A stretch of DNA of 64,000 bases from Ridgeia piscesae (taxonomy: Eukaryota; Annelida; Polychaeta; Sabellida; Siboglinidae). Positions 16,501 to 63,400 of this stretch are shown here, piece after piece. The position numbers and the translations under genes were made by a program. Numbering within the stretch: position 1 is the stretch's first letter; every line of letters starts with the position of its first letter. Under the pieces are notes generated by a model that saw nothing but the letters and a program-made list of their open reading frames with translations, had not been told where the DNA came from and did not search any database. The stretch lies in the NCBI GenBank assembly GCA_025642075.2, contig JAODUO010001198.1:257501-321500 (forward strand), written 5' to 3'.

Positions 16501-19500
16501 CCAGCATGTACAGTAATGTTGATCCCACGGCAGTGAGCCTCCTGGACAACAACAATACAGTAATGTTGATCCCACTTCAGTGAGCCTCCTGGACAACAAC
16601 AATACATTAATGTTGATCCCGTGGCAGTGAGCCTCCTGGACAACAACAATACAGTAATGTTGATCCCATGGCAGTGAGCCTCCTGGACAACAACAATACA
16701 GTAATGTTGATCCCATGGCAGTGAGCCTCCTGGACAACAACAATACAGTAATGTTGATCCCATGGCAGTGAGCCTCCTGGACAACAACAATACAGTAATG
16801 TTGATCCCGTGGCAGTGAGTCTCCTGGACAACAACAATACAGTAATGTTGATCCCGTGGCAGTGAGCCTCCGGGACAACAACAATAAAGTAATGTTGATC
16901 CCATGGCAGTGAGCCTCCTGGACAACAACAATACAGTAATGTTGATCCCGTGGCAGTGAGCCTCTGGGACAACAACAACACAGTAATGTTGATCCCATGG
17001 CAGTGAGCCTCCGGGACAACAACAATACAGTAATGTTGATCCCACGGCAGTGAGCCTCCTGGACAACAACAATACAATAATGTTGATCCCGTGGCAGTGA
17101 GCCTCCTGGACAACAACAATACAGTAATGTTGATCCCGTGGCAGTGAGTCTCCTGGACAACAACAATACAGTAATGTTGATCCCGTGGCAGTGAGTCTCC
17201 TGGACAACAACAATACAGTAATGTTGATCCCATGGCAGTGAGCCTCCTGGACAACAACAATACAGTAATGTTGATCCCGTGGCAGTGAGTCTCCTGGACA
17301 ACAACAATACAGTAATGTTGATCCCGTGGCAGTGAGCCTCCGGGACAATAACAATAAAGTAATGTTGACCCCACGGCAGTGAGCCTCCTGGACAACAACA
17401 ATACAGTAATGTTGATCCCGTGGCAGTGAGCCTCCGGGACAACAACAATAAAGTAATGTTGATCCCACGGCAGTGAGCCTCCTGGACAACAACAATACAG
17501 TAATGTTGATCCCGTGGCAGTGAGCCTCTGGGACAACAACAACACAGTAATGTTGATCCCATGGCAGTGAGCCTCCGGGACAACAACAATACAGTAATGT
17601 TGACCCCACGGCAGTGAGCCTCCTGGACAACAACAATACAATAATGTTGATCCCGTGGCAGTGAGCCTCCTGGACAACAACAATACAATAATGTTGATCC
17701 CGTGGCAGTGAGCCTCCTGGACAACAACAATACAATAATGTTGATCCCACGGCAGTGAGCCTCCTGGACAACAACAATACAGTAATGTTGATCCCACGGC
17801 AGTGAGCCTCCTGGACAACAACAATACAGTAATGTTGATCCCACGGCAGTGAGCCTCCTGGACAACAACAATACAATAATGTTGATCCCGTGGCAGTAAG
17901 CCTCCTGGACAACAACAATACAGTAATGTTGATCCCACGGCAGTGAGCCTCCTGGACAACAACAATACATTAATGTTGATCCCGTGGCAGTGAGCCTCCT
18001 GGACAACAACAATACATTAATGTTGATCCCGTGGCAGTGAGCCTCCGGGACAACAACAATACAATAATGTTGATCCCGTGGCAGTGAGCCTCCTGGACAA
18101 CAACAATACATTAATGTTGATCCCGTGGCAGTGAGCCTCCTGGACAACAACAATACAATAATGTTGATCCCGTGGCAGTGAGCCTCCTGGACAACAACAA
18201 TACAATAATGTTGATCCCGTGGCAGTGAGCCTCCTGGACAACAACAATACAATAATGTTGATCCCGTGGCAGTGAGCCTCATGGGCATCAACTATGAAGA
18301 CAACAACCACTCAAATGTATATCACAGAGTAAACTTTACTTCCTCTTTAGAATAAAATCTATCAGTATGCTAATTAACTAAATTTCATCACGTGACATTC
18401 CCATGCCACATCAAATACACTTTGTTGATGAAGACTGCACAACAAAAACAGGAGAAACAGTAAATTTCTCGATATGCCAACAAATGTATTGCATAGGCTG
18501 TTTCATTTATATAGGTTGATCTGTCCTTCCCATATGGACAGATATGTTAGCAACACCTGATGCCATCTCACCCTGAACACATCGATGATTTCTTTGGGTG
18601 TAGGGTCAACGTGGATCATGTTCTCATGACCTGCCATGTCAATGCCACACACCCCCTTGTCACGAAACTCTGTGCACAATTCCAGTACTTCTTCTGCCAA
18701 CTCTGTTGTAAGAGAAAGGTTATTTAATGGGAATATTTCACCAAATTGCAGCTGGTAATCTAACACGAGAACTGCTGCCTAGAAAGAACTCCATCAAGCG
18801 ATCAAACTGTGAACGCAGAACATGTGGATGTTTATACATTCTGTTATATATTTTGTGGAAATTCTGGCTTCTAATAAAAAGCAAAAGGCAAAGTTTTAAT
18901 GTTGCAACTGAAAGTGGGTACGTTTGATCCAGATGTCGTATAACCCATTCTAAGATAAATCCAAGAAATGCTTCAATCATAATAAATGTAAAATAAGTTA
19001 TAATAATAAAGTTATTACAATAATCCATCAGCTTCATAATTTATAATAATAAGTTAGAATTTTAGGATATATATAGGGAGCAAAACTTCCTTCATAGCCG
19101 GGGTGATTACCCTCACCTTCTGCACCCACCTGGTAGATGTCGCATGCAACAGAGGATGCTACGAAACTTAACGTCAAGCCTTCTTTCGGCCTCCTCAAAA
19201 ACCTTGCTGATGGCAATGACCACATTTCGGGCTGTCATTTGTTCACCTGATGCCTTGTTGCTTTCGTTGCTGGCCAATATGTGAGGTGAATATCGGGACT
19301 CACAGTAGATGATGCCTTGGCTTGCGATGTCTTCACAGAACTCATTGGTCACTCGTTCAATGGCCTTCAAATCTCCGCTGTAAGTCAGTCACCACATCAT
19401 ATCATCCACATTTGGCTGAATTTATTACCAGAATATGCACACCTGATGTAAAATGATGCATCTGCACCAAAGATTATACATCCAATCATAATTTCCGAGC

Positions 19501-60400: not shown

Positions 60401-63400
60401 ACAGGGTAACGCAGGCTCGTCAGACAGGGTAACACAGGCTCATCAGACAGTGTAACACAGGCTGGTCCATGGTGACACAGGCTCATCATACAGGGTAACG
60501 CAGGCTCGTCAGACAGGGTAACACAGGCTCGTCAGACAGGGTAACACAGGCTCGTCAGACAGGGTAACACAGGCTCATCATACAGGGTAACGCAGGCTCG
60601 TCATACAGGGTAACACAGGCTCGTCAGACAGGGTAACACAGGCTCGTCAGACAGGGTAACGCAGGCTCATCATACAGGGTAACGCAGGCTCGTCAGACAG
60701 GGTAACACAGGCTCGTCAGACAGGGTAACACAGGCTCGTCAGACAGGGTAACACAGGCTCGTCAGACAGGGTAACACAGGCTCGTCAGACAGGGTAACAC
60801 AGGCTCGTCAGACAGGGTAACACAGGCTCGTCATACAGGGTAACGCAGGCTCGTCAGACAGGGTAACACAGGCTCATCAGACAGTGTAACACAGGCTGGT
60901 CCATGGTAACACAGGCTCATCAGACAGGGTAACACAGGCTGGTCAGTGCTGAACAAACAGGATAACATTGGCTTCTCGGGTAGAGTACCAGGGTAACACA
61001 GGAGTAACAAACTGGTTGTTCAGACAAGCTAACGTCAGTTAAAACTGCCTGGTTAGACAGGTTCAATACGCTCCTCACACAGGGCAACTCAGGCTCGTCA
61101 CTATAGCATTTTAGGTTTATCAGACGGGGTTAATATAGTTTGATTAGTGTTAAAATATGCTAGTCAAGACAGGCTAGTTAGAAATACTGTTTGTTTGTAA
61201 AGCAATGCTAATATTGTACTTCATTTTGAAAGTAAAAGACCAACAAGAACAAAGCATGTTGCAACAATAAAGAATACTAATCTACTATCGTTAATGGCTC
61301 CTAGAAACTAACTGGTCAGATCAGCACGAGAAAAACTTAACTGCAACTGATTTTACATGAACAAGAGTGTACATTAAACCTACCAGATGGCGCCTACATA
61401 AGGTTTCAAACTTTCGAAGTGTTCCGACTGGCAGCTGATGATCTGAAACAGAAATGTTTCGTTATTATAAAATCTACATTTTTTGACAACATTGGTTTTA
61501 TATCCTTTTATCCATACCAGTCGTGGTCACAGTGCCCCCTGGTGGCAGATACAGGAACATGTTATTGCGCCTAACTTATAACTTGGTATCATTTCGTGGC
61601 CCCACACTGACACGCGACGCAACTGTACATGGCAATCTTGTAAGTACAAAAAACAGCTCAATTTCTTTGCATCCACAGAATTCCCACCGACCTGCGATAT
61701 CCATTAACTGGGCACAAATTCCAGGTAACCAAAGAAATAATCAAAACACAACGGACTAGATTTGCAAACTGTGAGGTACATAATGATGTTGTTATCAAGA
61801 TGACTCCCTCATCATTATGATGGACTGTGCATTTGTAAACTGTGAGGTACATAATTATGTTGTTATCAAGATGACTCCCTCATCATTATGATGGACTGTG
61901 CATTTGTAAACTGTGAGGTACATAATTATGTTGTTATCAAGATGACTCCCTCATCATTATGATGGACTGTGCATTTGTAAACTGTGAGGTACATAATTAT
62001 GTTGTTATCAAGATGACTCCCTCATCAGTATAGTGGACTGTGCATTTGTAACCTGTGAGGTACAAATGATGTGATATAGCAAGAGGAAAAGTCAAGAGTG
62101 CAGCTACAGAGACAGTGTACCTCTTTGAGTGAGTGCAGCAGCAGGTACTGACGCTTGGGCTGCTTCTCAATCTCTTGCAGGACAAACGGCAGGAAGCGTG
62201 GCAGGTTGCCCACACTCACATTGCCTACAAGTGACAAACACTGCATGTAGGTCACGGTCATTTCATTCTGCTGGATGTAATAGTTTAGATCGCGAACTAA
62301 AGCCAGCGTGTGTGCATTGGTCCACACAGCTGCAACAGTGTGGAATACTCTGTCGACTACTGTCACTTCACAAACTTGTCTTCAATCTTTTAATGCATCT
62401 CTAAAGATGCACCTTTTTATTACTGCTATTTAAAACTTTTTGCTGTACTTTTTTTATTGGTCTTAATTAATTAATTTATATGTTTTACAACTGAATAAAC
62501 TTCTTTTACATATTTATTTGGGATTATATTATTTTAACTTTTAAACGTCACTAATATATGTATGTATATATTAAAACATGTCTTATTTCCTCATATATGT
62601 TAAGCACCATGAACGCTCAGGTTATGGTGCTGTATATAATAAGCATTATTATTTCAATGGGCATTTCAAATGTTGACCTGAACCAGTAGTGCAAATGTTT
62701 AACCACAGGTGGATTACTCAGGTGTTATGAAATGTCATGAAATGAATGGTCATATTCCGTTGAAATCACCCAGTTCATAAAAGCTGACTGGCCAAGCTTT
62801 TTTGGCCTTGTCATTATCATACTGTACTGGTGTACTGGTTTTGAGTGAATTGTTTACAGCTGATATGTTAATTCCTAGTAATACTTTAGATGCATAATAA
62901 AATGTTTTTTGAAACAGATTCAGAAACAGAGATAAGTCATCACATGCGCACATCATGTGACTGTCGGTTGTATTTAGAGGATGACAATCACGGCAAAAAC
63001 TGTATTAGGAATAACCTCCGGCAAGGTGTGGCTGTGCGTACCTAGCGCGTAAGAGGCGGCTGACTTGACTTCCTCATGTGGCGAACTAAACGAATCCATG
63101 ACAATGTTCTGTATCTCGGCATGCCAACTGAGGTCTCTGTAACAAAACAGTCACTCGCTGTCACCAACAACACACTTCTGCAGACGCAACAGCAAACACA
63201 GACCAACGCAAATGTCTTCTGCAAACATCTCGTCAATCAGAAACAACACAAGTAGAGAGTTAAAATGTTCCTGTTACATAACACAGAAGCCTAGACTAAC
63301 AACCTCCCCATCAATGTGCACTCTCTCTGACCACCATCCTCGTTTCTCGCCAAATGACCCATGTCCAACAACAACGCCCATAACTGAATCTGTAGATGAC

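Follow-up and report, generated by a model that had tools for sequence, protein, structure and literature searches.

Minisatellites spanning exon-intron junctions in genes of the tubeworm Ridgeia piscesae

In a 64,000-nucleotide stretch of the genome of the vestimentiferan annelid Ridgeia piscesae (assembly GCA_025642075.2, contig JAODUO010001198.1, positions 257,501 to 321,500; hereafter the window), intronic minisatellites in four genes, ADA, MPV17, NUP42, and CAND1, begin within an exon, with coding bases and the splice site both contained in the repeat unit. Across a sample of other genes of the same genome, arrays that span a junction are commoner than chance, occurring on ~4-5% of the junctions sampled (10/227 or 12/249). 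We consider it probable (roughly 0.72) that these are minisatellites of the type termed "mirages" in amphioxus, for which a junction becomes duplicated, the duplication grows as a minisatellite, and the outer copy is the one spliced.

Junction-spanning arrays in the window

Exons were placed via AG/GT edges and open joins for five gene models (ADA, eight exons; CAND1, nine exons of the C-terminal part; MPV17, seven; NUP42, four; EF1A, six), with all joins in frame. Tandem Repeats Finder (TRF), the sequence itself, and the exon joins together confirm a junction-spanning array in each of the four genes singled out by the initial annotation, on three donors (MPV17, NUP42, and CAND1) and one acceptor (ADA), with each unit comprising 7-34 coding bases plus the splice site. 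The ADA array (minus strand, 16509..18292; 47 bp × 38) extends into the exon at 16470..16541 (EAHCRGINITVHAGESGEAANVAE), the acceptor AG of which lies at 16542-16543; its unit reads TTGTTGTTGTCCAG/GAGGCTCACTGC... (slash, splice junction), i.e., 33 coding nucleotides (nt) and 14 intron nt including the AG. For MPV17 (plus strand), the exon at 26842..26937 ends ...GGTTATACAG/GTAGGC and is overlapped by an array at 26929..27164 (23 bp × 10.5), the unit of which, GTTATACAG/GTAGGC..., contains 9 coding nt and the donor. The NUP42 exon at 48686..48780 (minus strand), ending ...CCTCCCAG/GTACAC, runs into an array at 48116..48692 (17 bp × 34) with the unit CTCCCAG/GTACACTTG plus one base, i.e., 7 coding nt and the donor. 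Finally, the CAND1 exon at 57564..57735 (minus strand), ending ...CTGGAGT/GTAAGT within an open nine-exon join, borders a donor array at 56032..57597 (44/33 bp × ~40) that TRF reports as several rows, including longer periods of 77, 110, and 154; its unit has 34 coding nt, then GTAAGTGGTGC.

A fifth array, also in CAND1 (minus strand, 59826..60946; 23 bp × 50), was said to touch an acceptor, and indeed stops 2 nt from that of the exon at 59634..59823; the AG is absent from the unit, and the array is thus touching as opposed to spanning. The four spanning units are unlike one another and give no sign of a mobile repeat, in agreement with the earlier view that no single mobile element is involved.

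NUP42 is itself partly doubled. Its FG-rich last exon is present as open reading frames (ORFs) at both 42359-43012 and 43855-44544, offset by ~1.5 kb, while the exon SGLEDVSHEEVRLK... is found at ~43183-43256 and again at 47598-47671; judging from the sequence, these doubled exons probably represent a partial tandem duplication within the gene.

To scan the 29 introns of the five gene models (25,405 intron bp), laxer TRF settings were used, yielding 12 rows, of which 10 had at least three copies and at least 60 bp. Four of these 10 arrays span a junction, compared to 1.29 expected under a uniform-seed model (Poisson P 0.04). As the window was examined on account of its arrays, this figure carries an ascertainment effect; the excess within the window alone is weak and at most suggestive. 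The claim of an excess therefore rests on the outside sample.

Arrays on junctions outside the window

The outside sample was drawn from the exons of myosin-head and TCP1 genes in the same genome. Of the 75 matches listed for the myosin head and the 50 listed for TCP1, 74 and 38 were taken up, and those lying within the DNA analysed (53 and 36) were extended by mutual tblastn to 86 myosin and 43 TCP1 exon hits, from which two array copies and two redundant copies of one exon were removed. Without 11 exons having a stop in the matched peptide, the base sample comprises 114 exons and 227 junctions in 199,461 bp; with stop-bearing exons included, the figures are 125 exons and 249 junctions. Only the TCP1 contigs were chosen blind to arrays. 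On the window genes, the junction caller reproduced 18/21 acceptors and 20/21 donors. Three sampled acceptors were corrected by hand after the arrays were known, two in CCT7 (C17), both later confirmed by orthologues, and one in C525, which stands without such confirmation. An event was counted when an array of at least three copies spanned a junction, with the null provided by fake junctions displaced 60-600 bp into introns.

Arrays were found to span 10/227 junctions, about 6 times the 1.68 expected (Poisson P 1.1e-5), divided between five donors and five acceptors, with 9-28 exon bases inside the array. Inclusion of the stop-bearing exons gives 12/249 junctions with the hand corrections and 10/249 without. 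Seven altered settings yielded 10-12 events where 1.39-2.54 would be expected (P 2e-7 to 3e-4); leaving out one contig at a time gives a worst P of 3.7e-4, and bootstrapping over contigs yields a ratio of 2.1-13.5. Removal of the hand corrections leaves 9/227 spanned junctions (P 6.5e-5), as does treating C411 and C1037, which are paralogues, as a single event (9 events, P 6.5e-5), and both steps together leave 8 (P 3.6e-4). Taken separately, myosin genes contribute 7/165 versus 1.22 expected, and TCP1 genes 3/62 versus 0.45 without stop-bearing exons or 5/82 versus 0.38 with them. Touching arrays (-2 to +15 nt of a junction) number 4 against 1.1 expected. The initial claim that junction overlap exceeds chance is thus borne out within the outside sample, though only weakly by the window.

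Several points weigh against our interpretation. The three hand-corrected acceptors raise the counts; the ten events include a pair of paralogues (C411 and C1037); the TCP1 genes without hand corrections reach only 2/62 (P 0.08) or 3/82 (P 0.007); the excess could partly reflect the loss of arrays lying near, not on, junctions; splice-like motif enrichment is absent in 34 interior arrays, for which the shuffle is rough with short units; and the public gene models compared below may themselves be predictions.

With arrays occupying 13.8% of the sampled DNA, some would be expected to land on junctions by chance, and neither the window (4 versus 1.29) nor the uncorrected TCP1 count of 2/62 departs far from that expectation. 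Chance is nonetheless an improbable explanation in view of the count of 10 versus 1.68 in the outside sample, which remains at 9 without the hand corrections and is robust to settings.

Selection is harder to set aside. Arrays could be born evenly along introns, with those near a junction harming splicing and being lost, such that on-junction arrays would become over-represented with no hotspot needed. Consistent with this, expected counts fall toward exons, from 2.59 at displacements of 451-600 bp to 0.57 at 60-150 bp, and interior units lack strong splice-like motifs, with a strong sense donor present in 0/34 interior arrays; however, the 10 observed events exceed even the 2.59 of the densest bin. 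We regard selection as a real possibility falling somewhat short of even odds, and lean tentatively toward mutational bias combined with tolerance. The lack of motif enrichment in the interior arrays also means that there is no sign of an AG/GT motif alone seeding arrays, and on the same grounds we rejected the idea that interior arrays are detached junction arrays.

Relative age of exons and arrays

In the cases tested, the exon came first, because the coding residues borne by the array match those of other animals or of paralogues. The array-borne part of ADA encodes EAHCRGINITV, for which the tubeworm Lamellibrachia satsuma (P0002) has EAHSRGINITV. Likewise, the array-borne DMFC and GGG of CCT7 (C17) are matched in P0134 and in L. 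satsuma P0135, and the coding parts of C951 (3.4 copies) and C564 (3.3 copies) have counterparts in paralogous exons elsewhere in this genome. In these cases, and in a myosin exon (C285), the exon is older than its array, which grew into the intron.

The myosin case (L041:5562-6115) does show a working donor re-made from coding sequence. The 31-bp unit of its donor array consists of the terminal sequence of the exon, ...GTACTCACCAAGCCACTCACCATTACACAG, with one base added; the donor now in use, GTAACTC, is therefore a copy of the exon-internal GTACTC. We presume the coding part of this unit (C285b) to be conserved.

The reverse order, in which an array was intronic first and the exon later adopted a splice site within it, could apply where the unit has few coding bases, as in MPV17 (9) and NUP42 (7), the coding parts of which are too short for direction to be read. 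For ADA and both CCT7 junctions, however, the match in L. satsuma runs counter to this order, as do the same-genome paralogues for C951 and C564, and we deem it very improbable overall.

Which copy is spliced

The spliced ADA model of the window is identical over 349 residues to R. piscesae NP493_1199g02112 (P0001), and the 210-residue MPV17 model is 100% identical to Ridgeia NP493_1199g02002 (P0121), identities that also show the host to be a vestimentiferan annelid and not a mollusc, as the initial annotation had taken it to be. The CCT7 orthologues P0134 (from a 2,384-bp contig) and L. satsuma P0135 run without a break over both of the acceptors that bear arrays. At the level of predicted protein, ADA, MPV17, and CCT7 thus agree with splicing at the outermost copy, beside the exon body.

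Many inner copies still resemble splice sites. Within the ADA array, 25/38 copies retain CAGGAGGC and 6/38 read CCGGAGGC, with the AG lost, while AGGT is retained in 30/34 copies for NUP42 and 10/11 for MPV17. Pooled over 13 arrays (the 14 measured less the misregistered C17a, with CAND1 and C564 outside the set), splice dinucleotides diverge at 40/597 positions (6.7%) compared to 4.9% in the other columns (P 0.07). There is no clear sign that inner splice sites are either guarded or eroded.

Repeated splice sites might instead be functional, regulating splicing or intron retention. The many intact inner sites would fit such a role, as would the retention of a related array in three myosin paralogues (see below), and human boundary repeats in duplicated genes do alter splicing according to the portions of that report considered here (PMC2812944). 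That inner GT/AG dinucleotides are no better kept than the remainder of the unit argues against it, and we hold a regulatory role to be quite unlikely. Less likely still is an assembly artefact, with repeats at exon edges collapsed or invented. In favour of an artefact, a published Illumina assembly of the species spans 574.96 Mb with a contig N50 of 10.42 kb, the assembly used here comprising 628 Mb in 4,875 contigs; the copies within arrays nevertheless differ from one another, periods are unrelated, and related arrays occupy the same donor in three paralogous myosins.

Arrays shared between paralogues

Units are unlike between genes except among myosin paralogues, in three of which the same donor (CACAG/GTGAGTC) is covered by a 19-bp array (L058:1003-1700, L043:2477-2964, and C1037 in L049), with that of L058 lying outside the count of ten. 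This common array therefore is older than the gene duplications, has arisen more than once, or has been kept alike by exchange. Introner elements, too, are repeats carrying splice sites, but form interspersed families; the tubeworm units are local and unrelated between genes, which sets them apart from introners. The ADA array, the one array compared to the genome, had its sole outside likeness, among the matches listed, in C78; we rejected the C78 array as an ADA paralogue, the likeness being partial and tblastn with ADA revealing no ADA coding sequence in the 20 kb of C78 examined.

Among the TCP1 contigs, L054:5749-6683 holds a 470-bp two-copy tandem duplication that includes a TCP1 exon, matched at 5660-5926 and again at 6220-6396.

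Other features of the window

Further long arrays lie at 11672-12931 (74 bp, 17 copies with 99% matches, beyond the gene models built here), at 7901-9078 (24 bp × 50), and at 14915-15261 (CCCT). An ORF at 1714-2379 (minus strand) begins like a signal peptide and contains a RNLSINQGISLLAEMVSNQDKLRKVEETKSFLGKIGKR stretch flanked by KR; we take it to resemble a neuropeptide precursor of the egg-laying-hormone/DH44 type.

Relation to described systems

The initial annotation knew of no described system of this kind, a view that does not hold. Mirage minisatellites of the same structure have been reported for amphioxus Adh3, the globins BflGb6 and BflGb9, troponin C, and PGBD5, with normal splicing of the genes concerned (PMC3087553, PMC3902484). 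For Adh3, array length is reported to vary between alleles as well as within individual animals. In the tubeworm, as in the amphioxus accounts to the extent considered here, the unit lies across a true exon-intron boundary (4 in the window and 10-12/249 of the sampled junctions), and both 5' and 3' boundaries are affected (5 donors and 5 acceptors). In the tubeworm, the proteins of ADA, MPV17, and CCT7 would be compatible with normal splicing. The tubeworm arrays have 3-52 copies, compared to 3 and 6 units in BflGb6, and come from another phylum and from several genes of one genome, with a shifted-junction control that the amphioxus passages do not give. The tubeworm arrays are thus a further example of a phenomenon already described.

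Variable minisatellites also sit at exon-intron boundaries in human segmentally duplicated genes, where, in the relevant portions of the report, they are tied to new introns: 27 intron modifications in recent paralogues, with units averaging 30 bp × 4, often accompanied by alternative transcripts and altered splicing (PMC2812944). The tubeworm arrays share this position, yet are longer and occur in conserved genes. Rogers proposed intron gain via tandem genomic duplication of AG/GT segments (as cited in PMC3087553); a duplication with a splice-site-like seam is common to that route and to the L041 donor, but the tubeworm cases include no demonstrated new intron. Within annelids, intron 1 of earthworm metallothionein contains minisatellites, which the portions of the report considered do not describe as junction-spanning (PMC12783039). 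An annelid junction-spanning array was not found among the literature matches listed, and a literature search for a tubeworm genome with minisatellite gave no match.

Proposed origin and implications

To account for these arrays as mirage-type minisatellites, we propose that a short tandem duplication would by chance cover an exon-intron junction, following which minisatellite turnover (slippage and unequal exchange) would multiply it into the intron. The copy at the exon body would remain under coding and splicing selection and be the one spliced, with the remaining copies serving as intron ballast. The spliceosome would keep picking the site beside the exon body, perhaps ignoring the decoys via exon definition; junction duplications may be tolerated because of this continued choice. 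Junctions might in addition be favoured starting points for arrays. The broader claim, that minisatellites in the tubeworm lineage are born at splice junctions because these are genuine hotspots of mutation, in a process that lengthens introns and repeatedly renews splice sites from coding sequence, is one that we put forward tentatively and consider doubtful at present.

Mirages, as far as the accounts considered go, have been described as curiosities of a handful of lancelet genes. The present work contributes an example from an annelid, a sample of several genes set against a control, arrays reaching about 50 copies, and a single donor remade from coding sequence. That ~4-5% of sampled annelid junctions are affected, as measured against a control, suggests a repeatable process acting on splice junctions. 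Such arrays offer a natural test of how the spliceosome settles on a single site when dozens of nearly identical copies are present, as well as of a possible contribution of tandem duplication to intron growth, boundary drift, or intron gain. Were the hotspot proposal true, these genes would show, still under way and open to counting, the tandem-duplication step that has been proposed for intron gain and boundary drift, exemplified by L041:5562-6115, in which the seam of a 31-bp, nearly all-exon unit supplies a working donor.

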